In this document: positions 5,388 through 34,362 of the stretch, one piece after another | Layout: each line of letters opens with the position of its first letter | How positions within the stretch are numbered: the first letter of the stretch is position 1 | Assembly (NCBI GenBank): GCA_014871385.1 | Contig: CM026426.1 | Span: forward strand, 13,049,958 to 13,113,957 | Direction: 5' to 3' | Length of the DNA: 64,000 nt | Origin: Ceratodon purpureus | Taxonomy: Eukaryota; Streptophyta; Bryopsida; Pseudoditrichales; Ditrichaceae | Translations under genes and position numbers: made by a program | Notes under the pieces: generated by a model | The model's input: the letters and a program-made list of their open reading frames with translations, nothing else | Told to the model about the DNA's origin: nothing | The model's database searches: none

Positions 5388-5424
<37 letters not shown>

Positions 5425-5631
5425 CGTAGTGAGTAATATAATTTGAAATTCTATCAATTTGAAATAATATTTCAAGAAAAAATATCCTAGTCTAATCTTG
5501 GTCAATTATAATCCTGCAAATGTTCTCATAGGTCTATGACGAACAAAAAAATAAAATAACAATAACCAACGGCATTACACATCTATGGGATTGAATTATA
5601 ACATATTTCAGCTTTTAAATAGATACCATTT
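5048..5631. repeat. Tandem satellite, left block (about 435-bp unit)
   Basis: The landmark TCTCATAGGTC recurs near 5087 and 5525, giving a unit of about 435 bp. Each unit also contains a GAGCAAATAATT block, a TACGTAATAAGAAA block and a TA-rich stretch (5390-5421). The same unit reappears at 21547-22390. The left block stops inside the unit after GATACCATTT, and the right block resumes at the matching place with GTTTCTTTTAA. One array has therefore been split by element A. Confidence 0.85.
5390..5421. repeat. (TA)n microsatellite
   Basis: Uninterrupted TA dinucleotides inside the satellite unit. The homologous position in the right-hand block is expanded much further (21719-21818 and 22282-22380). 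Confidence 0.95.
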
Positions 5632-5659
5632 AAGGGGTATTTAAGTAATTACGGACAAA
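5632..5659 (+). repeat. Left terminal inverted repeat of element A
   Basis: About 22 of 27 positions match the complement of 21520-21546. The outermost AAGGG and the inner GTAATT and GGACAAAA blocks are identical. The repeat starts precisely where the satellite unit is broken. Confidence 0.8.
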
Positions 5660-5870
5660 ACGCTCAATTATGGACTACTTTGCATCATCAGTAGACGTCC
5701 AATTCATGTGTTATCCCTCAAATTTAAAGACAAAGATGTCAAATATTTATGAAAAAATGCATTCCGTTTACAAGGGATAAAATCATTTGAGTGAATTTAT
5801 TATAATGTTGAATAGAGGACATTCCAGTCCCACTGTCATGGCCGAATCTCTCGGCGAGTGGCTGACTGAG

Positions 5871-5925
5871 AACCCTAAACCCTAGAAACCCTAAACCCTA
5901 GAAACCCTAAACCCTAGAAACCCTA
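5871..5925. repeat. Telomere-like CCCTAAA/CCCTAGAAA array
   Basis: Four alternating units of CCCTAAA and CCCTAGAAA lie about 240 bp inside the left end of element A. The sequence resembles plant telomere repeats (and plant telo-box promoter motifs), but every second unit is altered, so it is an interstitial array. Confidence 0.85.
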
Positions 5926-6203
5926 TCCTTAGAAATCTATATGTTCTAATAAAAGGAAATACTTGCTCTGCAAAATGTGGATCTGTGAAGTGAAGCGGGT
6001 GAAGGGAAGATCGTCGGCGACCCGCTGAGTGGACACGACTGCCAGGCATCTCACATTGGGGTGTCCGTCTGTGAGGACTCCGGAGTCGTCGTTTAGAATG
6101 AACAGTATTCACGATCACAACGAATGGAAGTCCTTTGTAGTCGGCTGGCCGCCGACTAGGAGAGCCAACCTCTTCCTCACTGAACCGACCTCTGGAATTT
6201 GAA

Positions 6204-6511
6204 ATACATATAAAAATGATGAGGAAATAAGTCCTAGTCCTAGTGATAAAAATGATGAGTAAGCTAGTCCTAGTCGGCTATCAGCCGAGTAGGAGAGTAG
6301 GGGCTACTAGTCCTAATGATGAGTAAATAAGTCCTAGTCCTAATGATGCAAATGATGAGTAAGCTAGTCCTAGTCGGCTACCAGCCGAGTAGGAGAGTAG
6401 GGGCTACTAGTCCTAATGATGAGTAAATAAGTCCTAGTCCTAATGATGCAAATGATGAGTAGGCTAGTCCTAGTCGGCTACCAGCCGAGTAGGGGAGTAG
6501 GGGCTACTAGA
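6204..6511. repeat. Tandem repeat, three 100-bp units each with one palindrome
   Basis: The palindromes at 6273, 6373 and 6473 are exactly 100 bp apart. The unit also contains CTAGTCCTAGTCGGCTA and AGTAGGGGCTACTAGTCC. It sits in the left subterminal part of element A. Confidence 0.9.
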
Positions 6512-6687
6512 CTAGGTCGACATTGGCAATTAGTCGTCCAGAAAACCCTAGAGAAGTGGATTACTAGAACGTTTACCAGTTTACTAGACGAACTCGTCGG
6601 CTGTCTACTGTAGAAGAAGGTCGAATATTGTAGAAGCAGGTCGCATACTGTAGAAGTTAGTCGCATATTGTCCAATATTTTGTCGTT

Positions 6688-7209
6688 ATGGGGAGGCGGG
6701 GTAGCAATGTGGAGCGACCATTTGGTCGGGAGACACCGGCTAACCTCGAGGAGCTCCGGCCATGGTATAGGGCGGTGGTCGCCCGTTCTCGCAATACCGC
6801 CATTCCAGCTTTCAAATACATCCCACGCCTTCTGCAGCCAGGTGCGCGGTGGTTTTGGAGTATTGCTCACAGCATTGAGTTGTTGGAGATCTCTGACGCT
6901 TCCGGCATCGCCTTCCCACTGACGTTCGAGGAGTCCGAGGAGTCCGAGGAGTCCAGGAGTGTTGGCAGTGTTCACTTCAGCCACACAGGGGAAGTGTCAA
7001 CGCAAACCATGTCAACTGCAGGGTGGCTCCGCCTTGTTGACGAAGCTTACGACATCTCGGAGGGTGCTGGAAGTCGGTGCTCTGGCCAAGATCAGTGGTG
7101 CGGAGGGAACGCAAGCCCGCAGTCCACGTATTCGTCGTTTGGATCCGTGCATCCATCCGTCGATACTGGGTGTAGTGTTGTCCGAGCCAAGTCTACTGCG
7201 AAGGACTGA
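6688..7209 (+). CDS. Hypothetical protein of element A (173 aa)
   Basis: A single open frame begins MGRRGSNVERPFGRETP, has a Trp-rich middle (RPWYRAVV, GARWFWSIAHSIELLEI), an acidic EESEESEESRS run, and a Ser/Gly-rich tail. It matches no family I recognise. Downstream, 7390-7460 is AT-rich with AATATAATGAAA-type sequences that could serve polyadenylation. An overlapping minus-strand frame (6478-6984) is also open. I favour the plus strand for its start and its distinct 3' region, but either could be an artefact. It is convergent to the transposase gene, which ends at 7860. Confidence 0.35.
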   Translation: MGRRGSNVERPFGRETPANLEELRPWYRAVVARSRNTAIPAFKYIPRLLQPGARWFWSIAHSIELLEISDASGIAFPLTFEESEESEESRSVGSVHFSHTGEVSTQTMSTAGWLRLVDEAYDISEGAGSRCSGQDQWCGGNASPQSTYSSFGSVHPSVDTGCSVVRAKSTAKD

Positions 7210-7859
7210 TCGCTTCATGGCGTTGGCGACCATATGCAGCTTTTTGGTTTTTTGGCTTCAGGGTGAATTAGTGTGTGTTAGAATTGTCCAGCTCGTTTTC
7301 AATAGAGCTGCTTCACACACTCGGATAGTTGTAGAATTCATGGTTAGCATTTGTTACTGAGGCTTTAGGAGTAGAGGCATCTTTGATGTATACACAATAC
7401 AAAGTAACATGTAAAAGGCGGAACACTACCGTTGTACTCCGATAATAATATAATGAAATGGATAAATATTTTTGATCAGTTTATCAAAGCGCATAGTGGT
7501 TCTACCAATTTTGTGGAAAGCGTCGGCGGGCAACCGACTAGAGTAACAGTGTCCACCGTAATAATCACAGGCCATACAATATAGACCAGCCTCACAAAGT
7601 CACCGTTCATGATGCTTATCTAACATGGTTAGAGGCATCGGCGGACAGCCGACGACCACCGAAGAAGGAAAAGTAAGGCATCAGAACAACAAATAGAAGA
7701 CAAAGTGTAATACATGACTAGTATTGGGTCTATGGTAGAATACAATTCTTATTCGAAGGAATCACAGTGTTTACAATATTCAACTATAACGTTTACAGAG
7801 GAAACCATCACTAGCTACATCTTCTACAGCTAAGATCACAATCGTCGGCGGGCAGCCGA
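7210..7859. other. Intergenic, element A
   Basis: AT-rich 3' flanks of two convergent genes, with palindromes at 7522, 7637 and 7844. The last ends at base 7860, touching the transposase stop codon. Nothing else is seen. Confidence 0.6.
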
Positions 7860-10800
7860 CTAGTCTTCCTCCTCGTCATTCCAGTTCATCGAGATTCCAT
7901 GCGATTCGAAGTTTGCCATGGCAGCAATCACAACATCTTCGGGTATTAGATGGGACTTTGGGGGCCCCTCATGCGTAGTTTTCTTGGTCCTATGAGTGTA
8001 TACAACGGATTTACACTCCACCCACTCCGCAAGAGTCAACTCCCTTTCCCACCGTCTTGTCCAGCACTCTCTCGCAACCTTCTTCTTACCTTCCTTCTTG
8101 CCCTTCATCGGAGTCCACCATTCAACCTTGAACTTACCGTAATTAGGACCAGGCTCTGTTATAACAGGCTCTATCGCCCTACCCATCCAAATGGGTAGGT
8201 GGTCTTCTTTACACGGACGACAGAAAACCCAATCGCCACGTAAAACGTCACGATATGGGTTAAACACAGACTTCGGCCTAGAGTTTTTCGGACCACAGAA
8301 AGGATAGGGCTCCACCTCATCCTCGTCACCGGGACGAATATCCGGATCCGGTATATATTCGTCCTCTGCATCGAATGTGGTGACGTGGTCCCGCTTCCAG
8401 TCTGAGATAGGCCAGAATCCTTCCTGTAAGGTGGCGGAATTGACGGGCAGTGGTTCGTTGACCTCCTTTAAAATTCGCTCCCAATACAGTACATATGGTA
8501 ACATGTCTTGTGCGTATTTCTTATCCCGAGCCATGCCAGTTCTCCAGTACTCAATGTACTTAGATAATCCACTTTTAATGAAATTTCTCTTCTCTGAACA
8601 CTCCGCTGCCCTTGCCACCTCTTTATCCGCGTTCTTCTTGCCCTCATCGACTTCAACACTACTCCATAAGTGCTTATGAGGAACCGGTTTGGGATCACCG
8701 ACGGGCAAACGTGGTTTACCCTCTTTGTCTGCCCTCCACATTTTCACGGGTTTGCCAGGTGGAAGCCATGATGGATCAGTTGCACGCTTCTTGTACCTCA
8801 TCACGGGCCACCCCGCATCCTCCCCATCCTCCACTACATAGAACTTAAAAAGATGCATTTCACTGTGACCTTCTATCGCATTACCTCCGTCGTGATGAAA
8901 ATCAGCAACATAACTTTTGAAGTCTGCCACTTCCTGAACAACCTCTGGAATAAAGGCAACTGTCTTCTGAGAATCCATGAATGCCTTCATAAGGTCGGCA
9001 AGGCAGTATGTGTTCTTTCGCTTAATGAGTTTCGATAGGTGACTGAAGTGGGCGTCGATGTCCTCATGTGTGTGTCCCACAATCAGGAAACCAACTGTAA
9101 CTTCCTTGAATATTCGCCTCGCCGTCAGCAACGAGCAGAATGCTAGAAGAAACCGGTTCTTGTTGTCCTTTGCAGAATTGTCAAGCTGGAGATACAACTT
9201 CTTCGGCAAAGGAACAGCAGGCCTACCAGGCAGAGGTGGAGTGAGTGGCTCATCTCTAGAAGGTGGAATTGAGGGGATGCAACGTGACGATCCATGCAAA
9301 GAATTCATTCTGTGGCGGTGCCTCGAAGAGTGCTTTTGACTCCCGGACAGGTAGTCTCTCCAAGGCACGGAATACCCTGCACAACGAGGAGATTGTGAAA
9401 TTTGGGTCTCCTGGCCACAGGGCAGTTGCATAGTGTGCGTAGGCGCCATCTCCGTGACCGTGAGTCCGCATTCCAGTACAGGAAATCGGAATTTGACCAA
9501 GCCCTGCCGTAGCCTTCGTGATACGTTGCATGCGGGGGATCGCTGTTTTCGATGTGTCCATCTTATCATGTATGATGCATAGGAACTCAGTAGGACTCTG
9601 TATAGATTGGGTTGTCCATCCGTAATAAATGTTGCGACAAGCTCGCTGATAGTTCAAATGCCTGGTCCTATCCTCTGTCAAGCTCTCCCACTCGTCCGAC
9701 CCTCTTGGATACTTGGCAATGAGTTCAACGAAGAAGTCACACTCAGTGCACTTGGAGAAATTACTTCCTACCGCCTTGACCTCAACGTTGCGGAAGTACT
9801 CCTTCCTCATGCGACTAACGGAGGACTGCGAAATCAGCTTCGCGTTGCACTGCTCATTGACTTGAATAGCACAGAGTGAGGTCGATCAGTTGGGAAGTTC
9901 GTCATCCAGTCGGCGGGCAGCCAACGATAGTAATCACTACAATTCAGTAAACTATCCAAAGTGAAAGAAGATGAGGAGGAACTTACGGCGTTGGCCATTT
10001 CGCGCATGTGATTCCAGTTCATCGCAGACGGGAGTACTTTGAGCGCGGCCACTCTCTTCTTGCCAATCATCCGAAACTCATTGGGCATTTGGTCGGCATT
10101 CTCATTAACGATAGTGGTCAACGTCGCGCGGGCCTGGATTGTGTGAATCTGGGGACGATGTACACCGGAATTTCCGTGACTCCCATTGACACGACCACTT
10201 CGGGCCGAAGCCTTGTAGCTGTAGTACGCGGATTTCGATACTCCGTGAATGATATACCACGCCACTTCACATACGTCAACGTTCGCAAGAGTAACATAGA
10301 GCTTCCGCTTGCCGGGTACAGTATGTAAGTGCCCTTGCACAGCGAAGGACATCTCTCGCCTCGCCTCGAATGTTGTTGCGTAAAATTTACGCCGAATACT
10401 CACAGTATCTTCCCATCTAAAAGTCTGGCAACATCGGTCCTTGCAACAGCGCTTTGAGCTCACTAAGCGGCATTCAGCAGGGACAACCATTCGACGAAGC
10501 TTAGTGGAAGAGACGTCATCTTTTTCGCGAACTTTCCTCCGCACCGATCGATAGGCATTCTTCGGGACACCATCCAGACCATCGTCCGCGTCGGCGTCTG
10601 CTAAATTCTTGGAGCAGTAAGTAATTATATCAGAGAGAAGGTGACCCCCTTCTAACCGAGTGTGAGTCAGACGCCATCTGAGAGTTGTCATCTGCAGATG
10701 ATCGTCTTCAGAGACGAAGAGAACCCCAACCTCTGTATACCCTAGGACTTCATCATCACATGCCTCATCCGGTAAACATACTTGAATCATTGCTCTACCA

Positions 10801-11933
10801 CGGACTGATAGATCATCATTAAGAAGTTCGACATACCGATTTCTCCAGAGGTGGCGGTCAGGATAAGAAGCATCTGGAGTAGAAGGAGTACCCGAGGTCC
10901 TGGAATCCGGACCCCAACAATGATCATCTGTTTCTATGTCGGATTCCCCTTGTTTAGACACATCGTCGTCACTGCTGATATTCATTGGAGACCTAGTCCT
11001 CAGATCCTGCTCAGACGGAGCGGAGTTGCTTTCATCAATTTCTTCATTGTCGTTCCCCAAGTGAGGTTCCGTCGGCGGGCAGCCGACGGGACATGTGCCA
11101 GCCAACGCGCCGTTCACAAGTGGACATACCTTGTATCCACTCCAAAGTACCAATCGCCCCACAGCACACCCGATCGTTAACACATCCGGTAACTCGCAGA
11201 AAGCAGGTGTTTCAGAGAATTCTGGATTGACGGACGACACTCTCACTATTAGAAAGAAGCTGTGAGGAATCAAGAACCCCTCCCACGTTCCTTTAGGAGA
11301 GCACTCCATAATGACTCCAGCGGCTACACAACGCTTTGAGCCTCCGGATTCCTCGAGGAGCGCAACTTCCATCTGCTCTGCGAGGTCCAGGAATTCTTGA
11401 ACGAGCTTGACATCTTCTTCAACATCCGTCGGCGGGCAGCCGACGGCGTTGATGTCATCGTCTTCCACCTCTCCGAAAGGCCTGAGGTCGGCCGCCTCCC
11501 ACAATATCATTTGTCCTAAGCAGTTGCTCAAGGACTTCACACCCTCATCCGGAAATGGTATATTCATTTCCATGCTGTCTGAAACCTCAATCACTTTTAC
11601 CACCACCACTATAGGATCAAATTCTACAACACGTTGGATCACTGCCCTGCCTGCATAATAGAGCCCAGAATGAGTAAGGGCCACGACAACGCCCTTTTTA
11701 ACCTTCCACCGCCCTGATCGGCCATTCCTTAGAAACGTCTGGATCGGCTCTACTTCCATTGGATAAAAGATGAAGACCTCGTCGGCGGACAGCCGACAGG
11801 GTCGACGGGATGTGTCCCCGCCGACGAAGTAAAATGTATCCGCCGACAACGAAGACGACTCGGCGGGCAGCCGACGCGGATCGTACGACTCGGAGTGTGC
11901 ACAGAAATAGCATCCGCCGACGATGACGGCCAC
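7860..11933 (-). CDS. DUF7869-type (RNase H-fold-like) transposase of element A
   Basis: The first exon runs from 11933 (or a Met near 11760, MEVEPIQTFL, because the first 60 residues are made of palindrome-derived sequence) to 9987. A GTAAGT donor there joins an acceptor at 9826, phase 0. The N-terminal half is acidic and unrecognised. Next comes a Cys/Arg block (KRCCKDRCCQTFRWED) and a segment ending GVSKSAYYSY, which I associate with the DNA-binding N-terminal part of this family. The second exon has CIIHDKMDTSKTAIPRMQR, then HGHGDGAYAHYATALWPGD, YLQLDNSAKDNKNRF and VGFLIVGHTHEDIDAHFS. The first D, the LQLDN Asp and HEDID are my candidates for the acidic triad, by analogy with DDE enzymes. 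The frame changes once near 9.3 kb, by a small indel or an unrecognised splice. The tail is basic/acidic and ends at a palindrome. It would excise and insert element A, acting in the nucleus. Family assignment is from memory of the conserved motifs. Confidence 0.75.
9826..9986 (-). other. Intron in the transposase gene
   Basis: A GTAAGT donor and TTTCGCAG acceptor bound a 161-bp intron on the minus strand, keeping the frame (…MANA | SSVSRMRKEY…). It contains the palindrome at 9909. Confidence 0.75.
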
Positions 11934-13426
11934 GTCCGCCGACAGAAATTGCAGGGGACCTTAGTTGAGAAGCAGTATGCTGTCCCTAACCTGTCCAATT
12001 AGAGACTCCTCTCAACCGTCCAATCAGAAACGATAGACGAAGACAACAGAAACGGCAACAGAAGGTGCGGGACAGTTAAGCACATGCGGGAATAATAACG
12101 GTCCTCTCAAGAAACGTGTGCGTCAGGAGCACTCTCAGAGGGAATCGAAAGTGCAATGACAGAAATAGAATGAAGTATGCGCATCTGACGGGGGGTTAGT
12201 TATGAATTCCCAGGAGTACAAATTGGCGCCAGAATCAAATTCAATTTTGCGCGCCTTGGACAGATCAAGATCCCATCATGGCGGCGAGATACCCCCGCCG
12301 TCACACAACAATGTTAGTTCATTATTACGAATTTGAACGTGGCGATTGGAGCATCTGTCACATCACATGCCCACGCCATCATGACTTGGTGACGGATTGA
12401 AAAAAGGTCAAAAGACGTCCCATCATCATCCTACGTGGCGTGATGGGACGGATGTTAGGGATGACCATCCATGCATGGATGGTATGTACATGCCATACGC
12501 CATGACCCATCGGGCGTGACGATTCAGTCTCGGGAGGTGGGGGTCTGTAGGGTATACACCCGCCACCCCCGACGTTTCCTCCTCATTTCTAGCCTTCTCT
12601 TTTTCAGCTCTCTTTTGTCCTCTTCTCAGCGCTCCGCAGAGGTCGCGTCGGCTGCTAGGTTTTTCTGCGTCGGCTGCTAGGGTTGAGGGCGTCGGCTCCT
12701 TCACCTGCGCGCGTCGGCTGCTGTTCGAAGGTCATCCGCTGACGGTGAAAGGCCATCCGCCGACGTTATGGCAGCCTCCGAGAGTGGGTAAGTTGTTAAA
12801 GTCGGCTGTCCGCCGACGCTCCCTTTCTTGAGTCTTTCATGTTTCCGTTTTCTCGCATGGGTTTGTCCCTCCCGTCGGCTGTCCGCCGACGCCACCCCTT
12901 CTATTGTCCTTCATGTTTCCGATTTCTCGCATGGGTTTGTCCCTCCCGTCGGCTGTCCGCCGACGCCACTCCTCCTTTTGTCCTTCATGTTTCTGTTTTC
13001 TCGCATGGGTTTGTCCCTCCCGTCGGCTGTCCGCCGACGCCACCCCTTCTTTTGCCCTTCATGTTTTGTGTTCTCTTGCTTGGGGTTGTTCCTCCCGCCG
13101 GCTGACCGCCGACGCCACCCCTTCTTTTGCCCTTCATGTTTTGTGTTCTCTCGCATGGGGTTGTTCCTCCCGTCGGCTGACCGCCGACGCCACCCCTTCT
13201 TTTGCCCTTCATGTTTTGTGTTCTCTCGCATGGGGTTGTTCCTCCCGTCGGCTGACCGCCGACGCCACCCCTTTCTGAGTCCTTCATTTTTCTATTTTCT
13301 CACATGGGTTATTCCCCCCGTCGGCTGTCCGCCGATGGGGAGGGCGTGTCCATCCGCCCCGTCGGCTGTCCGCCGATGGAGTGAGAATCTCATGGTCTAA
13401 TCTTGTGATTCTTCTTTTGCAGGGCG
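11934..13426. promoter_or_regulatory. Divergent promoter region of element A
   Basis: About 1.5 kb separates the head-to-head transposase and ParB-like genes. The left two-thirds has no convincing open frame. It holds short near-repeats such as CATCCATGCATGGATGG (12467-12483), which is a perfect palindrome around GCATGC, and several GACGG/CCGTC blocks. The right third is the palindrome minisatellite. Shared control of both genes from this interval is inferred from layout. No TATA box was convincingly identified. Confidence 0.55.
12801..13390. repeat. Minisatellite of 73-75-bp units carrying palindrome A
   Basis: Successive palindromes at 12874, 12948, 13022, 13097, 13172, 13247 and 13320 are spaced 73-75 bp. 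Between them lie repeated TCTCGCATGGGTTTGTCCC and TTTTGCCCTTCATGTTT blocks. The array ends just before a TTCTTTTGCAG (13415-13425) that directly precedes the ATG at 13427, so part of it may be transcribed as a 5' leader intron. Open frames across it (for example 12828-13400) only reflect a repeat length divisible by three in places. Confidence 0.92.
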
Positions 13427-16400
13427 ATGGTCGACTCCACCGCAAAACCAAATGGGTTACGGTGGCTCTGTGACAAGGTTGTTGATCCTGAAGTACAAAT
13501 ACGAGCACGGGGCTTGACACCGAGGGTGACATTCCTCGCTGATTCGAAGATAACGGAGTGGGGCATCACCTGGCGTGACACTCCCACGTCGCTGGGCTTC
13601 GTGACCAAAATAGGTCAGAAGCAAATGGCAGGTGGACCAAGATTTGAGATTATTGGAGCCAGGGAATGCGAGGATAACGACAACGTGTGCTTGGTGTTTG
13701 CATCGGTTCCTGTCGCGGAGGGCACACCAGTGGACTGCTTCGCGGTTTTAATTCCGGTTGAGAAGTGCATGGATGGCTTGTGCTCTAAAGAAGTACAGGA
13801 TGCGGCTACTTGGGGCAGGGGCGAGAACATAGCTGTTGAACAGATACTCGACGTGATTGATACGCTCGGGGACAAAGTGATGGAAGAGAAGACGAAGAAC
13901 TCGGTTAAGCCTTCAGCAAAGAAAAGAGGCGGCCGCAAGTCTGCTGTAGAAGCGGGCACTGGTACAGTCACCTCCGAGACCGGAGAAACACAGACGACAG
14001 GGGAGTCATCGAGAAGGAAGAAGGGAAAGGCAGCGGCTGCTGAGGGCGAGGGTAGGAAGAAGAAAGGTAGGAAGAAGGAAGAGACAAAGGAGACCGTGGC
14101 GGAAGCTCTCATGCTCGCAAACAATCTCACTTCCAAAACAAAGGACACCGACGTCCTTGCCATGTACCAGACGTTGGAGGAGGGACTTGGGCACTGCTTC
14201 CCCAACGGGCAACGTGCCCTTCCTTGTCAGATTCCATATAACAGGATACACATAGCTCCCGACGAATTTAAGTACAGAGCGATATTCAGGAAGAGGCAGG
14301 ATCAGATAAGTCTTTTCTACAAAGGACTTGGAGCAATCCGGAAGAAGCCCGAGCTGTACTGCCTTCCTATGAGTGGTGACCCCGGAGTAAAGGATCCAGT
14401 GACGGGCGAGATTAAGCTTAAAGGCTTGGAAGGACTTCTTCGACCTCTGCCAGCCCTAAATGTCAAGTATTCACTTACACTGGATGACGGCACATCTAAG
14501 CTGGTACCTTGGTATGAAGATGAGCTCATCCATTGGTACATAATTGGGGGCCAGCACACGTTTGAGGCTTGTCGAGAACTGGGAGAGAAGGAACCACTGG
14601 ACTCTCCTATGCGGCAGTATTACCTTAACCACGATATCATTCCTGTATATGCTGATAACAAGGATACCCTCATTAAGGTCTCTAACGCATTAAACATGGA
14701 GGTGAAGGATAAAGTCGCCGAAGTAAGTTTCAGGTCCCAGCTGGCGAAGATGCGCGCCAAATGGATCGAGCGGGGGAGGATCGACAAGAAAGATGACTTC
14801 AGCGCATGGAAGGTAATTCACATCTTCCTCTTTTCCTGTTGTTTACATGTAGTTGAAAGTCGTCGGCGGACCGCCGATGCTCAAGTGGTTCTCCGTATTG
14901 TAGAAGTGGGATTTATTTATCAATGTCATTTTCTTCTTCCTTGCAGGAGTTCTGCAAGGAGTACCTCAGTCCGATTCTCGGAAAGTCCCTTACGTCCCAA
15001 ACCTTCAAGTTGCCCTTAGTCTTTGTGTCTGACGAAACATACAACGAGTGGCAACTGGTGTTCGACGCCTGGGAGGAGGGGAGGATCATCGGGGAGGACG
15101 GTTTGAAACCTGGATTTCCCCCAAAGCCAGCCCGCCGGGACATAACACTCAACGACATGCAGTACGTGATCGGTCTTCGGGACCACGAATGCAAGAGGCT
15201 GGCCAAGGAAATTCTGGACCTTAAAGTGTACGTCAAGGTCACTGGGAAAGAGGTGGTTCAACGGGATGGAACATCAGTGGAGAATTGGTGTAAGCGTGTG
15301 AAATTCGAGTATGTTGTCCGGAACGAGCTCATGTGTATTTACAGGGGCTTTGCACTGAAGAAACCAGGGACTGGGAAGCATATTGAGTGGACCATGGATG
15401 ATTGGAATTCCCTTGAAGTCGAGAAGGGGTTCAATGATACAATGGTTAGTAATATTCGGGCTGACTTGGAAGATAGTCCTGAGGGGAAGGAGTGGCTTAA
15501 GGGACGGAATCATCCGCTCACGCCGTCGCAAGGGCCAACACGAGAATTCTTCAAAGACATTGTGCAAAAGTACAGAAAATCGGATGTGGACCAGTCTTCG
15601 CAGTCGTCTGTACAGTTCGATGTTCGGATTGCAGAGGACCTGGGTGAAGTGTGCACAGCTCTTGACGTTGGCGGAGCATTCTCCTTCAACAAGGCGCAGT
15701 ATGAGATGTTCGTGGTCTTTGGCTACGATCCAGCGGGAAAGGAGATGCCTAACATGCGACAACAACACGTTATAACTGTCGCTGAGAGGATTCACCGTGA
15801 GGTGGAGGAGGAGGTCATTCTGGATGGGGAGGTAGATACAATTAAGGTGAATAAGCTTGTCACCCCATCCTTGTGGCTACTCGATGCTGAGTGTAATCAC
15901 ACTCTTCAAGGCGTGTCAAGGCTGACGAGTAATTCGTGGACGGTTCATACTATGCAGTACTTCCCTGATAGTTCCGCCGGGTTTCAAAGGTGTTCTCTCA
16001 TTGACTCTAGACCCAAGGTTCATGTGTCCGTTATGTATCCAAGAACAACGCTCGGGGATGCATGGAATACCTTCTCGGACTTCACTGGTTTGAAACGTCC
16101 GCTTCCTCCCTATGTGGACGAAGGAGAAGATCATCTTGGGGAGGATTGGTCAAATGGTCACTGCCACGCTAGTTACTCTTTCCTCCAATCTCTTCTGGAG
16201 AAAGCGATGCAGATTGAGGACGTTCGGGTGATCAATTGCTGGGGAGGGGGAAACGTCACGGCCCTTGCTCTGGTAAGTTACTGCAGTCTCTTCTGGTGCC
16301 TTCGCTGTTTGCTCACCGATCGTCGGCGGGCAGCCGACGCTGATTGAATCCTTCGTGTTTCTTGGGTAGAAGATTTCCTTAACCGTTTCGTCTTGTTCTG

Positions 16401-17612
16401 CTGCAGAAAAACCATTTGACTGTAATTGAGATCGTGCGTACCGAGGAAGAGAGATACGAAGCGCACTGTCGGGTTCGGAATATGACGTTCATTCCGGGCG
16501 TTTATAACGTGCCCGTCCAAGCTCCAGTTCAGACCACGCAGTCTGGGGCCGGGCCGTCTGTCCCCGCCTCTGCTAGAGGCAGGACTGGCTCTCTCACGGC
16601 TGCCGACTTGGGTGTGAATGCGGAGGAGGCCCATTTGGTCGGGAAGGGTGGATGTATGGGTTCGGGGAAGACTGCGAGGGGTCGCTCAGAGAGTTATCTG
16701 GACTCCGACGACGATGTCGACGAGGAGCCACCAGATGTACCCGACCCAGACGTTGAAGATGAAGCTGGAGATGCTGAGGAACAGCCAAGAAACGAGGACG
16801 ACCAAGCTGAGGCTTTCATTCCAACTGGAAATGCAGAGGTAGAGGAGCGAGACACGGAGGACTTAAGCTATGAACCAGTACCCGACGTATTACCACTGGA
16901 AGAATCGAATCCTCGTTACGTGAACCCACCGCTGTCGCAAGTTCTACGGGAGACCGGAACTGACTCCCTCAGCTTCGGTATTAATTCTCCTACATTTCAA
17001 GAGCAGGAGACTCCTCCCGCCGAGCCAGAACGTGATTTAGACCAGACGGGGCGTCCAAATAAGATGCAGGTTCCTCTAGCATCGAGGCCTGACGATGAAG
17101 TGGTTCTCCGTGTCCAGAAGCCAACCCAGGAGCCTGCAGTGAGCATTGAAGGGCATGTTCCTCCTGCTGCCGTCGGCGGGCAGCCGACGGCAGACAAGCA
17201 AACCTCATCTAACCCCTCTGCCAAGACCAAGTTGACAGGGAAGTCAATCGCATTCGTCACTCAAGGTGTGAAGGGCGCAACTCGGATGATTGGCCCGGAT
17301 GAGAACCCTCTGGTTAAGACACGATCAATGAAGAGAAGTAAGACCGATGGTACCGCGCAGGATTCCTCTCTTGTGGGTAACTTATCCCGTGATTCCTCAG
17401 GGGTTCAGGAAGGGGAGGAGTCCTCTGGGAAGGGCAAACGGAAGGCTGCTTCGAAGAAGACTTCCTCCGAGAAGACTTCCTCCAAGAAGGGCACATCTGG
17501 GGAACAGCTCATGAGTCCCAAGAATGTGGACGCTCCAGAGGACGTTCTGTCACCTCCGCGGGCATCCAAACGGGAGCCTAGGCCGAAGAAGCACAAAGGT
17601 GGAGCTCAGTAA
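13427..17612 (+). CDS. ParB/DGQHR-like protein with methyltransferase-like C-terminal region, element A (1305 aa)
   Basis: Three exons: 13427-14812, 14947-16272 and 16407-17612, all phase 0 with GTAA donors and TTGCAG/CTGCAG acceptors. Residues 1-150 are globular and unrecognised. Residues 160-225 are a Lys/Arg-rich linker (RRKKGKAAAAEGEGRKKKG), likely nuclear. Residues about 230-460 hold HWYIIGGQHTFEACRELGEK, resembling the GxxR/DGQHR core of ParB/sulfiredoxin-fold proteins, with His-Thr where bacterial ParB has Arg-Arg. The second exon ends INCWGGGNVTALAL and the third continues KNHLTVIEIVRTEEERYEAH. This layout recalls the glycine loop (GSGTT) and following acidic strand of N6/N4 DNA methyltransferases, but the canonical residues and a clear DPPY are missing, so activity is doubtful. 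The last 350 residues are acidic then Lys/Ser-rich and disordered. A palindrome lies in each intron and one in the coding tail (17172). A diverged homologue exists in element B. The domain calls are inferences from short motifs. Confidence 0.65.
14813..14946 (+). other. Intron 1 of ParB-like gene, with palindrome
   Basis: GTAATT to CCTTGCAG, 134 bp. It contains the palindrome at 14862-14878. Confidence 0.85.
16273..16406 (+). other. Intron 2 of ParB-like gene, with palindrome
   Basis: GTAAGT to GCTGCAG, 134 bp, the same length as intron 1. It contains the palindrome at 16322-16338. It splits the methyltransferase-like motif between glycine loop and acidic strand, as the homologous intron in element B also does. 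Confidence 0.85.
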
Positions 17613-17770
17613 GTCAGGCGGTGGCCTAGTCCATCTTTCTAATGCCTGCATTGATAATTTAGTGTAGTGATCGGGCGCTAGGATTGTGTTAGATGTTTGT
17701 ACTGCCAAATATGAATAAATTTTCGGTAAATGCCAAGTTGTACGCTCTCCCTTTTTCCAAATAATGTTGC

Positions 17771-18688
17771 TTGCAAGTCGGCTGTCCGCCGACCGTCGTC
17801 CTAACCGTCACGTTTGTCTTCTGCTTCGTTTTCTGTCACTCCAGAGTCCGCGGACAAGGAAGTCCATGGAAAACTTCGCGAAGACAAAAAAGTGCAGTTC
17901 TGGAGCAGGGACCTCCACCTCTGAATCCACTTCACATAGCCCCGGAACAGGCTGGTACTCAGGTACACGATCCAGTGCTGAAGTACTTTCTGGTTCTGGA
18001 TATTAAAGGCCTGCTATTAGTCCAGACGAAGCAGGGTACTAGGTGGAATACTAAACTTAGACCGGGTTTAGAGAAGTTCCTAGAGTTCTGCCTGGACAAT
18101 TTCGAGGTGGTCTTCTGGAGCTGCGTTCAGGAAAAAAGGTTCCAGATTCTGTGGACAGCGTTGCAGCAGCGCTGTCCTCGTCTAGATGCCGAAGTGCGCT
18201 ACAAGTTCGACCAGAGTTTCTGCGAGACTTGCGTTCATAAGGCTAGTAGGGAGTTTTATTTGAAGAGACTCCAGACCCTCTTTGACCTCGATGACGGCCT
18301 GAAGGGGACGGGGGCGTCTTCAATTAACACTCTCTTGGTTGATGATTCCCCTTATAAAAATGTCGCAAACACTCCTTGGAACGCTGTGCACCCTACACCA
18401 TATACCTTCGAGTCGAAGGAGTCGGAAAATAAGAGGAATTATGTGCTTGGAGAATTGATTCCTTGGCTTACCAGTTTGAAAGAATCCAAACTCCCCGTGC
18501 CCGAGTACTGCCAGAAACACTCCGAATTCGGTCAGCGTCGTCTGTTTCCGGGGATGAAGCTTATAGTCTCTTCTCTCCACACATTGATTGCCCTAAACGA
18601 AAGAGAACATAGTAGATGTAGAAACTGTTTTAGAGAGCATGCACATGATTCAGTCGGCTGCCCGCCGATGGGATCTTCATGTATTTAG
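17771..18688 (+). CDS. FCP1-like HAD-domain protein 1, element A
   Basis: The first 25-30 residues look like leader or intron sequence: an acceptor TCACTCCAG lies at 17839-17847, and the segment is palindrome plus hydrophobic. The domain starts at YFLVLDIKGLLLV, followed by RPGLEKFLEFCLDNFEVVFW and INTLLVDDSPYKNVANTPWN, then WNAVHP. This order (motif I, the hhhWS motif II strand, motif IV DD) is that of FCP1/SCP CTD-phosphatases and NLI-interacting-factor domains. In motif I the nucleophile Asp is kept, but the second Asp of DxDxT is Lys (DIKGL), so phosphatase activity is unlikely. Motif IV VDDSP is intact. It lies 160 bp after the ParB-like gene, whose AATGAATAAA-type signal is near 17711, with AATAAA near 18703 after this one. 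It ends in palindrome-derived residues DSVGCPPMG. Confidence 0.7.
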   Translation: MQVGCPPTVVLTVTFVFCFVFCHSRVRGQGSPWKTSRRQKSAVLEQGPPPLNPLHIAPEQAGTQVHDPVLKYFLVLDIKGLLLVQTKQGTRWNTKLRPGLEKFLEFCLDNFEVVFWSCVQEKRFQILWTALQQRCPRLDAEVRYKFDQSFCETCVHKASREFYLKRLQTLFDLDDGLKGTGASSINTLLVDDSPYKNVANTPWNAVHPTPYTFESKESENKRNYVLGELIPWLTSLKESKLPVPEYCQKHSEFGQRRLFPGMKLIVSSLHTLIALNEREHSRCRNCFREHAHDSVGCPPMGSSCI

Positions 18689-18851
18689 ACTTTTTCAGTA
18701 AATAAAGTTTTCCTCCTTTTAAATATATGAGAACAGAACTCAGTGTCGAGACTGTGTATTCTGTCGTGGGTGTCTTATTGTGTCTCCATTTGTACACTAG
18801 AGCAAGTATGAATTGTGAGCATGCGATTGATCACCGGAATTTTCTTGGAAT

Positions 18852-19967
18852 TTGTCCTTCATTTTTCAGGAGTCACTGGAGGATGACGCTGAAATTGAAG
18901 TGCACCAGGGACCTTCCCTTCTTAGTATGCTCTTGGAGGAGTACCCAACATCTCCTGATGGTGATGCTCACAGAGAAGAGTCTCCGGGAGCGGAAGCCGA
19001 GAATGAAAGTGATGGGGAGGACGAGTACGACTATCCAGTCAGCGGGCCGCCGACGCTGTCTGCTGCACATAGCTCTGGCCGGTGTGCGATGGCTTCCACC
19101 TCGTTCGTCGAGACCAACGTCGCGATCCCGCGCACCGGTTCCCCGCGCGATGATTCCGTCAGTGTCAGCACTGATATTATTGCGCGTAATATTGAGGTAC
19201 CTCTCCAACGATACTACCTTGTCCTTGACATTAAGGGATTGCTCATCGCGGAGCACCACGGGTATATCGGTGATGACCAGAAGACAAAAATTCATATCCG
19301 GGCTAGACCAGGACTTCTTTCATTTCTAGAGTTCTGCACGGCGAATTTCGAGGTAGTCTTTTGGTCCACAGTTTCTGAAAAGAATCTCGATCGTCACTTC
19401 CAGAAGCTGTTAGCCATTCATCCTTTGCTCAGGAGCAATTACAGACGCCTTCCAGGATTCTGGTGTGATATCTCAACAAGGACTAATCCGAATGGGAAAC
19501 GGGAGTACTTGTTGAAGCGTCTGGATAGACTTTTCTGCGACACTAGGCTACTGGCTCGATCAGGTGCCACTGTCCAGAATACCCTACTGGTAGACAACCG
19601 CCCTTATAGGAATGTACTTAATCATCCATTTAGCGCTGTCCATCCGAATTCTTTTTTCTGGGACTCTGCAGAGTGCAAAGAACCTCAACCCACCCCCAAT
19701 CCCTATTTAACTAGGGTAGTTACACCATTCCTTGCAGGACTTAAGCAGTCTGGATTGGATGTCCAGGAGTATTGTAGGAAGAATTCTAGCGTGGGGAAGC
19801 CACGTCTTTTTCCAGGATCTCGCGAATACCAGAAGTATAGGGAGGTTATTCCTTCTCATGCATGCGGGTTTGACGTCCCGGGTGATCCTGGATCTTGGTT
19901 TGTGAATTTACCTTGTCCTCCGGAGGCCCCTGGTAGTTCCATCATCGGCGGGCAGCCGACTGATTAG
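18852..19967 (+). CDS. FCP1-like HAD-domain protein 2, element A
   Basis: The exon proper probably begins at the acceptor TTTTTCAG (18862-18869), giving ESLEDDAEIEVHQG. An acidic N-terminal region of about 100 residues includes palindrome-derived PVSGPPTL (19038). The domain follows: YYLVLDIKGLLIAEHHGY, IRARPGLLSFLEFCTANFEV with VFWSTVSEKN, and NTLLVDNRPYRNVLNHPF. It shares the DIKGLL substitution with the preceding protein. In addition motif IV is VDN instead of VDD, so it should be catalytically dead. It could act as a phospho-CTD or protein-binding module. The stop follows immediately on a palindrome encoding IIGGQPTD. The start codon was not located with confidence. Confidence 0.7.
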   Translation: MSFIFQESLEDDAEIEVHQGPSLLSMLLEEYPTSPDGDAHREESPGAEAENESDGEDEYDYPVSGPPTLSAAHSSGRCAMASTSFVETNVAIPRTGSPRDDSVSVSTDIIARNIEVPLQRYYLVLDIKGLLIAEHHGYIGDDQKTKIHIRARPGLLSFLEFCTANFEVVFWSTVSEKNLDRHFQKLLAIHPLLRSNYRRLPGFWCDISTRTNPNGKREYLLKRLDRLFCDTRLLARSGATVQNTLLVDNRPYRNVLNHPFSAVHPNSFFWDSAECKEPQPTPNPYLTRVVTPFLAGLKQSGLDVQEYCRKNSSVGKPRLFPGSREYQKYREVIPSHACGFDVPGDPGSWFVNLPCPPEAPGSSIIGGQPTD

Positions 19968-20277
19968 AGCCTTTATCAGCGGCGCCACTAGTTTTAAAAA
20001 TCACATATGATACTCTGCACTCTTTAGCTAAATACGCTAAGACTGTTCCCTTTCTGAACTTCCCTGCACCACACAATTGTTTCTAGTGCTGCAATTCGGT
20101 ACTTCTTTTTGTAGATCCATGCATGAACATTTCCCTTGCTGCACATTTACCTTTGAGGTTTCTTCAATGCATCGTTTTGTCGACGGGTCGCCGACGACTT
20201 TGAATATAGTCCATTTCTTTCATATACTTCGTCCTGTTCCTTGATTTCCTTCACTGATTGCATTTCATATTCTTCAG

Positions 20278-20955
20278 GGTTCCTCGTTTTATTTCAAATG
20301 CCTTCACGCTCCACCTCATCATGTCAAGAAATGTATTGTCCTATGCGTCAATGGCCTTCTCTGCTATGTGGATCCCAGGATAGAGGCTTTGCCATGGGAT
20401 ACGCATCGGAATGTAGTGAAGCGCCCAGGTTTGAAGAAGCTTTTCGACATGCTTTTCTTGCATTTCCATGTTGGTCTGTGGTCGAAGATGCCCTTGGGAG
20501 AACTGAAGCCTTTACTCACACATATTCTGCCGGCCGGTGTAATGGAGAGGCTGTCCTTCGTGTATAGCAGAAGTGACCTTATCGACCGGGAGAATTTCCC
20601 CTGGAGTTATAAGACGTTAGGTCAAGTTTGCTCCAAGGTACAGTCTAGAAACGTCTGCAAACTAGATCAGGTGCTATTTGTGGATGTTGACCCGAGGTCA
20701 TTGAGGAGGACACCAAACTGTATGTGCTACATTCCTTGGCCTTTTTAGGGTCATCTAAACTTTCCGAACGATGACGGCGTTATACCTAACATTGCTACAG
20801 ATATCCTTCCTCTGGTATATCCCTTGCACAAGTTCGGATCTGTACCGGAGTATATGGCGCAGGCGTGTAGGCCGGGGCAAGTGCACTGGGCAATTGAAGC
20901 TGCGAGAAAGTTTGGACGTGCACGAGTGGACTGGACTGAAGTTTGCTGGGACTGA
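20278..20955 (+). CDS. FCP1-like HAD-domain segment 3, element A (interrupted)
   Basis: It starts after the acceptor TATTCTTCAG (20268-20277). The frame reads HHVKKCIVLCVNGLLCYVD, where the position of motif I is LCVNGLL, with both catalytic acids lost. RPGLKKLFDMLFLHFHVGLW and DQVLFVDVDPRSLRRTPN then match motifs II and IV of the two preceding copies. An in-frame TAG at 20746-20748 follows IPWPF, but coding character continues in the same frame to 20955 (YPLHKFGSVPEYMAQACRPG and EAARKFGRARVDWTEVCWD). Read-through, a recent nonsense change or a short domain are all possible. It is the most degenerate of a row of three related domains, which suggests local duplication and divergence. Confidence 0.6.
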
Positions 20956-21518
20956 GTTAGGCGGACTTTTTCGCCTCCAACTTGCACTTCTTCCCTCCTC
21001 CTGACCAACAGAACACCTTCCATCGGCTGCCCGCCGACTTGGTCGACCCGTTTGTGCGGCCTTCAAATATATGATTTACTCATTGACCTTACGGCTATGC
21101 TTTCAGGGAAATAGTTTTCCGAGTAGGTTATAATGTGATAGGATTTACGTCAACTTGGTACATAGTGCTGGGTGTAGACTTAATGTTGTAGGACTTCATG
21201 ACTCAAAGTGCTACGGGACTAGTTAGTTTAGCGTGTTCTATTATCGGCGGGTCGCCGACTCTGTATTGTACATTTCATTACTTGAATCAACATGATATTC
21301 TTTAAAGTATTCATTGTAACTCTTATTCTGCATCATATGTCGCAATCTTCGGGTTCATATATCCATCACTGGCAAATTCCGCCCATGCACATCTCGATGT
21401 CCAGTTTTGCATTCCATATTCTGTCGTATTTATGTACAATGACAGTGTTCATCTGTGGTCTCCATCCATCGGCGGTCCGCTGAGTTTGCATTGGTCATTT
21501 TTGAATTCTGGACTTTTT
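20956..21518. other. Right subterminal region of element A
   Basis: AT-rich and non-coding, with palindromes at 21022, 21243 and 21468. The last is 62 bp from the right end. Confidence 0.7.
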
Positions 21519-21546
21519 TTTGTCCAGAATTACCTTAATATCCCTT
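21519..21546 (-). repeat. Right terminal inverted repeat of element A
   Basis: Reads inward on the minus strand as AAGGGATATTAAGGTAATTC and then TGGACAAAA. Just inside, a GGAC...GTCC palindrome adds a small hairpin (about 21507-21525). The satellite resumes at 21547. Confidence 0.8.
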
Positions 21547-21733
21547 GTTTCTTTTAACGGATCTGAATTTACTAATTCCATATAATAGACTTCGTAAGCA
21601 AATACTTTAAGTCAAGGATATGAATTTGTAATCCACATCTACAATTTATGACACATAGGAAATAAGAAAGTTAATGACTTGAATATAGAAGATTGTTAAA
21701 ATTGAAATTACATAAATACACACACACACACAC

Positions 21734-21820
<87 letters not shown>

Positions 21821-21958
21821 TATACATATATAATAATCTTAGGGAGTAATATACTTTGAGATATTATCTATTTGAAATAATATTAAAGAAACCAATATCC
21901 TAAACTACTCTTGTACAATCATAATTATGCAAACGTTCTCATAGGTCCATTACAAATT

Positions 21959-21991
<33 letters not shown>

Positions 21992-22279
21992 AATAACTCA
22001 AGGACATTAAACAACTACGTGAATGAATTCTAGAATATTCTAGCGTTTTTAGTAGATACCGTTTGTTTTAATGAAACTCAATTTACTATTTCCATATAAT
22101 CGTGTAAGTGAGCAAATAATTTAAGTCAATGACATAAATTTCTAATCAATGGTAATAATAGATGACACCTACGTAATAAGAAAGTGAATGTTTAAAATTT
22201 ATAAAGTTATTTAAATTAAATTACATAAATATACACACATACATATGTATATATAAATCTAAGAGGTTAATCTTTTGTA

Positions 22280-24600: not shown

Positions 24601-26895
24601 CAAGTTATACGTGAGCGCTGTTACATCTATCAGCATTTTTACAATTGGTGGGAGGAGAAGCGTTTTCGAGGAGGACCGTTTTGGAGGAGGAGCTTTTTGG
24701 AGGAGAATGAGCGTGCTTGTTGTTTCTTAAACCGAACAGCGTATGTCAGGTAATTCTGAATATCTATGTTGTTTGTGCTGTGCCGTCTGATTTGAAAAAG
24801 GTTTTGTTCAAGTTGAATAAGGAGTAATTGTTAAGCTGCTCTTTTGTCCTCTCTAACTTCGATCTGGACAAGTACTGTATCTGGCCAATTTCCATTTAGT
24901 TACCTGCTCAATCTTTATTGCTAGCGACCCTGGTTGCTTCTGTCAATAGGTCCGCGCAATGCATGTTTTAGAACGCCACCCAGTCTTCCTATCTCCCCGA
25001 GAGCGTCGTTTTCTCAATCACATGCCCTCAGTTCTGCTGTAATTTCGAGCTTCGCTGTTAACCTCTGTACAAATAATTGTTGACTTGCCGAGACTGCATT
25101 TTTCTAGTTCGTGATTGATTTAGTCATAGAACCCCTTGTTTATGTTTAGCTTCATTGTGTGGGATTACAATGCATTGGCGGTTGTTTTTAGGCTACTCTA
25201 CGAATTCTGACACATTTCTTCTATCCCCGTACTCTAATGAACGTAGATGCTCAAAACTATATACCTAAGAATATTCGATTCAATACGAACTCTGTACAAA
25301 ACCATTTAGTCCTAATGAATTGACAAATTCTCTCCTTGGCTTAGCTTTGCTCGGGAATTAGTCAGTTCGGATTAAGTAGGTCACCTTAATGAGCAATGCA
25401 TACATATATCTCCTTTTATAGCGTACGCAAATAAGGTGACCATCTTAATCCTGAGTCATCATATAATGGGTTTGGCTTGTTTAACTTCCTATTGATTGTG
25501 TATTGCACGTAAACTGCTTGTATGGGGCTTCAACTGCTCAGATAACTTTGGTGCTTTGAATTTGAGTAGTTTTATGTTTCTCTGCCTCTTCAGATTAACC
25601 TGCCCATGTTAATAACATTTCTCTAAGTTCATGATCAACGTTATGATGTGCATATTAGAGTGAGAATGGACGTCATTGATACTGTGAAGGATCATGTCAT
25701 CTAATCTTCTTGTTTTTTGTATATATAGGATGGGAACAAACGATCCCTTTCTTTTCAGGATTGTTATTTGACAGGATCTCTGTCCTAGTGATTGTGACAC
25801 TAATTTTTTTGAGGAAATTGAGGACGTCAAGTTTACAATCCAAACCGACGTTGTTGATACGAGCGCAGGATGGTTCTTGGCAAGGGAGAATCTCACGTCT
25901 TCGAAATCCTCTCTTTTCGTAAAGTTTGCTGGATCCGAAGATTATGTTCCTGTTACAGGGCATTCAGTTGTATTGTGCCAAGCAACACATCCGTACGTAT
26001 ACATACTTCTTCAGAGGCCCGATTCTGTTCGAGAAGCGCTTCTTATCAACACCGTGATGTTTTCAATAAACCATGTGGAGTTGCGTAATGCGTGGAAGGA
26101 TACTCCACTGGCAGCGTTCATTCTGGAGGCATTTAACAAGGACTCGAACAAGGCGGGGGTGACGCAGACACAAGTGGAGAAGCTAATAGCAAAATTGAAG
26201 GAATCGGTTTCAAAGAAAAAGAAGAAGGATAAGATTCCGAAGATAGACAAGGGGAGTTCATCCGGGGTCACCGAATCAAGTGCACTTCCAGAGAGATCAG
26301 TTTCAGTGAGAGGGGCTCCTAAAAAGGTACCCAGATCGAAGGCAGCATCTAAGAAAACGGCGGGGGAGAAATCTGCAGGGGGAGATGAGGATCCTGCCGA
26401 TGCTGATGATAAGGAGGAGATACCAGCTGAGCATCACCTGCCTTCCACCCGCAACTTCGATGGATCAGTTGTCGCGGAGGAGTGCATCCGAAGATTCAAG
26501 AACTTCAAAGACAATTTTGGGAAGTACTACCCCCTTGGATACAACACATTGGTGGATGTTGATGTTTCGAAGGTTGACATTGCGCCCTGCAACTACATCG
26601 TGCGAGTACTTGAAGGTGACGGTGTTACTACTGTTTACAACACCTTGCTGACACAAGTTATTCCGAACAAGCAAGTGCTTTGCCTTTTTCCACAGGGATT
26701 GACTTCCGTTCCCACCAGTTGGGAGCAAATTAAGAACCTAAGATTCTACGCAATTAACGGCCAGCATACGGTTAAGGCAGCTCAACGAATTCTTGCAACT
26801 CCTGGAGTTGACAGTGCAAGAAAAGAGATGGTCCGAAATTTGAAGGCGCAGATTGTGTGGGATTTAGAAGCGTGGAAAATTCAAGCTATTGGAAT

Positions 26896-27870
26896 GTAAG
26901 TACATTGCACTCCTGTTCTCTAATCCTGAATCCAGTTTCAAAAGATTTTGTTATTAAGACTGTCACCTCAATTTGTGGTCCTTTAAACTTTACATATTCA
27001 CAAAAGTAATTGTTCTTCTCAATCAAAGTGAGCGAGAGTAAAAGGATTAGACAGATGAGAACGAAGTACGTTAGAGTCAGACAAATTTTTCAATTCTAGT
27101 CCGCAAATGAATCAATTTCCAGTTGTTAAAGTTGTAAGGAAATCTCTACTTGCTTGTCACATAAGCTGTTTCTACATGTAACGGTTGAAATGACGAACTT
27201 GTTGATATTAATGATCGTTTGAATTTGTTAGTGTAAATTAAGAAAAATGCAAATAATTATAACTCATCTTCTAGCATGCATACATCAATCATCATTAGAT
27301 GCCCTTCTTAATCTTGCGCTAGTGATTTAGAGTCTAATGTGCATAAGATTAAGAACGTCATCTGAATTCGACCAGATGATATTCGATCAAAACTCAATAT
27401 AGGTCCCCTGTGTGGAACCCTACGTTCTAGATTTGTAACCGCATACTAGAGATATATCTGTGTTGTTAAATTGCTAAAACCTGATCTGAAATTGAGGTGA
27501 TCAGCGTAATATGAGACTGGGAATGACTGGATCTATTCAATCTCGGTCTGACGTAGATTTAAACAACTTGATTGAGCTGATACTAACACGGATTGAGGTG
27601 GTCACCTCAATCTTAGACTCAGATATTGTTGTCATTCAAAGTTGAAGAAGTTAAGAGTTGTAACTACATTTCATTTCCTATCGATGTTTCTGTTCTTACA
27701 TTGTCTAAAAAGCTAAGCCACATCATCGAAGTATAAAAATTAGATATCATAAATTGTAAATGGTTTGCATATCATTTATCCTACGGACATTTTACAAGGT
27801 ATTGTAATCATAATATACTTTGTGTACTATAATCGTGAAGCTAATTTTCTGTGAACGACTTCTTCTTACA
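26896..27870 (+). other. Intron of the element B gene with five palindromes
   Basis: Bounded by GTAAGT and CTTCTTACAG, it contains palindromes at 26954, 27294, 27348, 27491 and 27591. About 380 bp of it (27130-27510) is homologous to the next large intron (29225-29610). Confidence 0.65.
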
Positions 27871-29239
27871 GAGGTTTTTGAACTCCATGATCCAAACTCT
27901 GTCGAGTGTATGATCCAAGAAAGACCAGTTGGAGGAAGACGACAAGTTGATAAAGTGGACATACAATGAGGTGAGATTCGAGTGGACGTTGATGCGGTCA
28001 AGTGACGCGTGCTGGGAGAAATGGGAACGTTTTTTCGAAAAACACATAAAAGGAGAACTCGTCTGTCCAGAATTCGGTCACTACATCAAAGACACTCCTA
28101 ATTTCAAGAGCAACCTGAAGGCGATTGCACCGTTGACAAAGAATTGGTTCAAGTGTGTGGAATCTCTCACAGAGAAGGAGATTGAAAAGCTGGTGACATA
28201 TCTTCTGAATGAGAAGACTGATGATTTGAAGCCAATTCTAGTGTACCCCAAGGTGATTCCTTTTGCGGTAAAGGATGTTTGTAAGAGTCGTAACATATTG
28301 TCCGCGTTGGAGTGGGGCAATAGGAAAAGAACCAAGCGTCATGTTATTGGAGAGTTCAATCGCTATACTGGGGGAAAGTTCGATCTTATCGAGACATGTT
28401 CAGCTAAAGGATTGGACAAAGGCCACGACGTCCACCGGGAGAACTGGAGAACTTTTAAGAAAGCACACATGATCTCATCCACGACTATGGCTAATGTCGA
28501 ACAACTATGAGGATAGAAATCGGCTTGACAAAGGCTACCTACCTCTAGCATTCATCGAGTCACTTCGCTCGGTAGTGGAAACAAAGTCGGATGAGGCCTT
28601 GACCACAGATGTAGGCATGTGCATGCTTTTAGCCCGGGATTATAAGACATTTGGGGGCGAGATAGTGAAGAAGGGAAACTATACAGCAGTGGGGGATATG
28701 AAGAAGGTGGACATCCGGGAAAAGACAAAGTCCGATTGGGCTGCCTTTATCGATTTTCGGTAAATTGAAGGACATGTAGAGGGTTCAAAGGTGGAGCACC
28801 CATTTTGGGAGCCGTTTGTGAAGAGGTTGGAAAGTTTCAAGATCCCGAGATGGGCTGAAACTCCTATTTGGATCTGGATAGCAGATGACACTCGAAAGGA
28901 GCAAGTGCAGGAGTTATATAAGCAGAAATTAAGAACCACGCATTAGAAACCAGTGGAGGCTTTTTAATCCCCCTGATCCTATAGAAGGGTTTAAAAGTGA
29001 TAAAAAGGTGAAGGGGAATGTAGTCACAGTGTACTACATCGTGAAGGAATACTACAAAGTGCCCACACTCACAAATATCTTCAGATGTGACACTAGATTA
29101 AAGGGATTTACCGAGGGTAAATACCGATACTACCCAGGAGAGTTTCGGATGGAAACTTACCTCCGAATGCTTCAGGACGTGTTTAGCGCATACAAGGCAG
29201 TTTTTAACATCTTTGGCGGGCGGAAACTCATGCTTGCTT

Positions 29240-34360: not shown

Positions 34361-34362
34361 AT

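Follow-up and report, generated by a model that had tools for sequence, protein, structure and literature searches.

A 64,000-bp stretch of the Ceratodon purpureus genome (contig CM026426.1, positions 13,049,958 to 13,113,957; the window) contains a DNA transposon, element A, in which one palindrome, GTCGGC-N5-GCCGAC (palindrome A), recurs about thirty times. The question raised by this locus is what the palindrome is for. In the reading we favour, and to which we give a probability of about one half, it is the recognition site of a dimeric DNA-binding protein encoded by the element itself; the site would mark the element and would probably serve anti-silencing and self-expression in a VANC-like manner.

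Confinement of palindrome A to element A within the window

The search for palindrome A (17 bp; GTCGGCGGRCAGCCGAC in full form) identified 14 exact and 17 one-mismatch copies in the window, all 31 of them at 6140-21259. Two-mismatch sites were found at 5850 and 6013 only, both within element A, and no site with two or fewer mismatches was present in the other 48 kb of the window. There were 21 three-mismatch sites, one of which (21468) is near the right end of the element; the remainder, inside and outside element A, may be chance occurrences. In 300 dinucleotide-preserving shuffles of 5800-21500, the mean number of copies with up to one mismatch was 0.02, with a maximum of 1. A position weight matrix (PWM), trained on the same 31 window copies, gave 33 sites scoring at least 9, every one in element A, compared with a mean of 0.5 and a maximum of 2 in 20 block-shuffled windows. 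The initial annotation, which had been made from the sequence, had reported about 32 copies confined to the element, and the present counts agree with it.

The ends of element A were found independently of the motif, through terminal inverted repeats (TIRs) and a target-site duplication (TSD), and delimit an element of 15,915 bp (5632..21546). The left TIR (29 bp, AAGGGGTATTTAAGTAATTACGGACAAAA; 5632..5660, forward strand) and the right TIR (AAGGGATATTAAGGTAATTCTGGACAAAA on the reverse strand; 21518..21546) agree at 24 of 29 positions. The TSD is 4 bp long, with ATTT on the left (5628..5631) and GTTT, one difference away, on the right (21547..21550). The element interrupts a satellite unit, whose left half runs to unit position 22064 and whose right half picks up again at 22061. 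These ends lie approximately 500 bp (left) and 60 bp (right) beyond the interval first annotated, and the earlier statement that the motif stops at the ends of the element holds for them. The insertion target is an AT-rich satellite with units of approximately 0.5 kb (5058-5631 and 21547-22366). A telomere-like tandem repeat of AACCCTAAACCCTAGA (3.4 copies, 5871-5925) was also noted some 240 bp in from the left end.

Sequence constraints and placement of the copies

When each copy was turned to whichever orientation matched GGGCA more closely, a procedure that favours that centre, the consensus was GTCGGCGG(G/A)CAGCCGAC. Among 21 non-redundant copies, G7 was present in 20, G8 in 20, C10 in 19 and A11 in 17, and position 9 was loose. 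The centre had been described as varying while the arms were kept, which is mostly wrong, as these four positions are constrained. Pairs of TCGGC and GCCGA up to 40 bp apart were separated by 5 bp in 26 of 28 cases. Twelve copies carried changes in one arm (A1 with C17 in six, G1 with T17 in two, G17 in three and C1 in one) that were not compensated in the other arm; on one strand, the A1/C17 combination can be read as a G-U wobble pair. The rigid 5-bp spacing, the constraint on the centre and the lack of compensation between arms point to one dimeric DNA-reading protein.

The copies are unevenly placed. Two tandem arrays, both outside gene models, hold 12 of the 31: a left subterminal array (6273..6489) of three copies in a 100-bp tandem unit (6215-6510), and a central array (12801..13377) of nine copies between two divergent gene blocks, mostly in a unit of approximately 75 bp (12801-13335) and with last two spacings of 73 and 41 bp. 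The annotated density of one copy per 500 bp is thus correct as an average only. With exon borders approximated from open reading frames (ORFs) and homologue matches, exons made up 60% of element A and contained 5 of 34 sites. The motif had been reported from introns, intergenic DNA and exons alike; a few copies are indeed exonic, but exons are avoided, in a comparison whose p-values count the copies of the arrays as independent. The DUF7869 gene (7860..11960, reverse strand; Pfam DUF7869, E=2.5e-38), a DDE transposase candidate, has one copy (7844..7860) directly against its stop codon and another (9909..9925) in an intron, between homologue-matched exons at 9870 and 9984. A third (14862..14878) is located 49 bp 3' of the putative intron-1 donor of the GQHT gene (13427..16347, forward strand).

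This placement bears on whether the palindromes are cis-acting sites of transposition, required in excision and end pairing and recognised by the transposase or a TnpA-like helper. The transposition of Spm/En requires TNPA, which binds subterminal repeats (PMC2613891). A DDE-like transposase candidate is also encoded by element A, which has a subterminal array on its left side and palindrome variants close to both ends. However, the majority of copies lie in the interior, with the largest array at the centre and others in introns and at gene ends, and the sites nearest the element ends (5850, 6013 and 21468) are the weakest. A cis-site function was therefore considered unlikely.

Two observations weigh against recognition of the DNA by a single element-encoded protein. 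First, the eight copies in the reverse-strand gene block (7522-11859) all have the same centre orientation, which could be explained by a role in RNA. Second, lone GCCGAC/GTCGGC words outside the palindromes of element A numbered 15 against 5.1 expected, a threefold excess that could be explained by a host factor.

A role in RNA would have the palindrome act as a hairpin in splicing, processing or termination. The arms are able to pair, and several copies are intronic or at gene ends, in addition to the shared orientation of the eight. The one-arm changes of the 12 copies described above are uncompensated, although some are readable as G-U wobbles, the twelve array copies lie outside gene models, and the forward-strand gene block of element A contains centres in both orientations. 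We regard this as the least probable of the alternatives. The initial annotation had left the choice between a dyad-symmetric binding site and a hairpin under selection; a putative binding site is the better supported, and a hairpin is less likely in view of the uncompensated changes and the array copies.

The host factor to be considered is the stress regulator DREB/CBF, through which stress could switch element A on. GCCGAC is the dehydration-responsive element/C-repeat (DRE/CRT) core of the DREB/CBF factors, whose promoter sites are independent RCCGAC words without fixed spacing. The arm of palindrome A is identical to this core, and the excess of lone GCCGAC/GTCGGC is in keeping with such a role. 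Independent sites would not, however, need a 5-bp spacing in 26 of 28 pairs or a constrained centre. Lone 5-bp half-sites (TCGGC/GCCGA) showed little excess (28 versus 22.5 expected), and lone ACCGAC/GTCGGT showed none (4 versus 6.3). Furthermore, the palindrome of a second element, described below, has the same habit without GCCGAC. Use of the sites by DREB/CBF thus appears quite improbable.

The homologues of the element A proteins were scanned for peptides compatible with RTCGGCKGNCMGCCGAY; a peptide determines only part of the DNA word. There were 12 matches in 10 of 144 non-close homologues, these being 148 proteins minus the near-identical P0001, P0003, P0005 and P0101. The first-pass scan, with the near-identical proteins included, had given 16 matches in 148 proteins, against a mean of 0.28 and a maximum of 2 in composition shuffles. 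None of 400 random half-site permutations reached 12 matches. When all 3,359 half-site permutations were evaluated, 10 reached 12 raw matches (maximum 33); with shared tails collapsed, the observed number was 11, and one of the 3,359 attained it, at 12 (mean 0.35). The excess, although strong, is therefore not unique.

Most compatible peptides are situated in tails flanking conserved exons, before or after them. Past what is apparently the same splice point, at a position equivalent to that of the 14862..14878 site, the tails RRRPAD (P0101), IGCPPM (P0107) and YRRTAD (P0145) are all encodable by palindrome A; the identity of these proteins to the element A GQHT protein is 90-91%, 36-37% and 38-53%, respectively, the last of these varying with the alignment. 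Compatible peptides also precede the exon next to the 9909..9925 site in P0002, P0026, P0027, P0032 and P0005. By eye, P0020 of Physcomitrium patens has VGGPPI and IGGPPT near its N-terminus, where P0003 of Ceratodon has VGCPPT twice; one of the two peptides has been lost in Ceratodon P0005, which reads VSSKPM. The DUF7869 homologue P0019 has a compatible peptide in its N-terminal tail ahead of an exon, at a point where P0001 and P0003 continue unbroken, and on this basis palindrome sites may be gained and lost together with introns.

These peptides are relevant to the possibility that the palindrome is a functionless selfish mini-palindrome, or a tandem expansion, spread by copying. The two tandem arrays, with 12 of 31 copies, are what such a process would produce. 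The flanks of the dispersed copies are, however, unrelated (past the first base on either side, information does not exceed 0.43 bits per position), distant homologues have compatible peptides at matching introns, and the word is missing from the rest of the window. The earlier exclusion of simple duplication accordingly applies to the dispersed copies and not to those in the arrays, and we hold copying without function to be a very improbable account of the whole.

Element B and the candidate binding protein

A blind scan of the window for exact spaced dyads (spacer up to 12) returned two families with at least six sites, GTCGGC-N5 and ATTAAG-N8, when shifted or extended forms of both were set aside. 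The second corresponds to a 20-bp dyad, ATTAAGRTGRYCAYCTTAAT (palindrome B). A PWM placed 15 sites scoring at least 16 at 25371..35260, the region of element B; 13 of these had served to train it. A further site is present at 23410. Three sites scoring at least 16 near the window's left end (749, 1070 and 1220; 749..1239) and a weaker one at 127 possibly belong to another B-type element or to the remaining part of B. Weak sites elsewhere in the window were limited to 36836 and 46682; the B arms also recur with one mismatch at 48464, outside B, where the inner bases misfit and the PWM score is below 9. No palindrome B site scoring at least 9 was found in element A, and no palindrome A site scoring at least 9 was found in the window outside element A, region B included. 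With exons, similarly approximated, occupying 50% of region B, none of the 15 palindrome B sites was exonic. As palindrome B has no CpG, the two words are not simply targets of CpG methylation. The private words of two related elements suggest that the binder is encoded by the elements.

Element B contains exon 1 of its own GQHT gene (25772..26899, forward strand). The A and B GQHT proteins are remote homologues: profile comparison with hhalign gave a probability of 96% and E 2.6e-9, with 16% identity across 169 columns. Intron 1 of each gene holds the palindrome of its own element, 49 bp past the donor in A and 57 bp past it in B (a one-mismatch copy at 26953..26972), with the donors placed from GT and homologue tails. 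At such site densities neither placement alone is rare, and the two were taken as supporting evidence only. The GQHT protein is favoured as the binder since it is, besides the FCP-like domains, the homologous component of A and B, and since an intron of its own gene carries the site. The window copy of the B exon lacks a part (26890-26899) relative to P0149-P0152 and looks damaged; intact homologues exist.

The ORF at 14857-16347 appears to be the continuation of the element A GQHT gene. Exon 1 of this gene has 48 homologues, with P0101 at 91% identity and the other 47 at 31-49%. The GQHT motif resembles ParB/DGQHR domains, a resemblance of motif only. The protein had initially been labelled ParB-like, and this label was left unconfirmed, with no Pfam ParB match at E<=0.1 in 49 family members. 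A structural model of the GQHT protein was of moderate quality only, a fold search with the GQHT protein gave no informative match for the presumed ParB part, and a sequence search of the PDB with the GQHT alignment gave no matches at E<=1.

Element A encodes three FCP/NIF-like domains (Pfam NIF; 17765-18688, 18831-19967 and 20245-20748, forward strand), and FCP/NIF-like pieces are present in element B at 31819..35041 on the forward strand. In B, the stretch at 31819-32517 matched Pfam NIF below the cut-off (E=0.0038), and 34877-35023 matched the NIF1 protein of element A (tblastn, E 4e-5). The standard FCP phosphatase motif is DxDx[TV]. It is replaced by DIKG, DIKG and CVNG in the three domains of A and by DLNH in the domain of B (34360-35041). 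With the second Asp missing in both elements, the domains are probably pseudophosphatases.

Regarding the transposase, a structural model of the DUF7869 homologue P0001 was most like DDE integrases and transposases. A Pfam scan of 10 element A ORFs found no MULE, Tnp2 or other named transposase family, and a literature search for DUF7869 found no papers. No relative of P0001 was found in viral contigs, where two pattern stretches were noted and neither was confirmed; the pattern GTCGGCGGNCAGCCGAC gave 30 stretches there, each with a single match and without a cluster, and these were taken as chance. A search of B for DUF7869 with 148 homologue proteins gave no match, but the same search also missed the GQHT gene of B, which makes the negative a weak one. 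The DUF7869 gene of the window has a frame change at 9298-9299 relative to homologues and looks damaged; intact homologues exist.

Among the other features, element A has an acidic, low-complexity ORF (16383..17612, forward strand) with no Pfam match. Its termini (20 bases from 5638 and the right counterpart, up to five mismatches) were matched elsewhere in the window only at 43913; as an end of element B this site, with five mismatches, was discounted as chance. Pieces of a piggyBac-like DDE_Tnp_1_7 transposase are present at 43303-44429 on the reverse strand. A long interspersed nuclear element (LINE)-like element with zf-RVT and endonuclease domains occupies 59784-63993 on the reverse strand, and includes a reverse-transcriptase-like ORF identified by eye (61474-62418). 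A 352-bp self-inverted repeat of 95% identity was found at 54725-55076.

Proposed self-addressing by private palindromes

The likeliest binder of the palindrome would be the product of the GQHT gene. Sites over promoters, introns and subterminal DNA would let this protein coat the 16-kb element in its entirety while leaving all other DNA bare. Its most probable effects would be anti-silencing, through chromatin kept open along the element, and activation of the element's own divergent promoter at the nine-copy array. Element B would do likewise with another version of the protein and another palindrome, protein and site having diverged together. From the features described above, we infer protein binding, the identity of the binder, its dimeric state and the anti-silencing effect alike.

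The closest parallel is VANDAL/VANC, in which two related proteins, VANC21 and VANC6, each have a short motif of their own, located in tandem repeats of non-coding DNA (PMC5735166; PMC10398659). Like these, element A has a word that is element-specific within this window, mainly non-coding and partly in tandem arrays, and related elements differ in their word. The dyads of 17 or 20 bp differ from a 9-mer such as YAGTATTAY, and a few copies in element A are exonic. The transposase candidate here is DUF7869, unlike VANDAL, a MULE with VANA; the candidate binder, GQHT, has no recognised kinship to VANC, no direct comparison having been run.

CACTA/EnSpm elements have CACTA termini and a 3-bp TSD. 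Element A is similar to those with TnpA in combining a repeated motif with a presumed element-encoded DNA-binding protein, but its sites span the whole element, its TIRs begin with AAGGG and its TSD is 4 bp with one difference. Both motif and protein differ between CACTA/EnSpm families (PMC2613891). The palindromic site is shared with ParB-parS, whereas element A is an integrated eukaryotic transposon, and no ParA family was among the Pfam matches of the 19 ORFs scanned. The 4-bp TSD also differs from that of Zisupton, given as 8 bp in PMC12730594.

A broader proposal, which we advance tentatively, is that elements A and B represent an undescribed moss superfamily of large DDE transposons (DUF7869, GQHT and pseudo-FCP), each lineage marked along its full extent by a private palindrome, with VANC-like self-addressing having been invented independently. 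Each palindrome would be read by its own GQHT version, and protein and palindrome would switch specificity together. Judged by titles among the matches listed, no such palindrome has been described in moss transposons.

Transposon self-activation without disturbance of the host is known mainly from VANDAL/VANC in Arabidopsis. The A/B pair extends this question to a second lineage of land plants and to a different class of transposase. As neighbouring elements with homologous proteins and non-overlapping palindromes, A and B offer a ready test of the co-divergence of protein and site. If the proposed recognition is true, such elements would be a source of new, orthogonal, long-site DNA-binding proteins.

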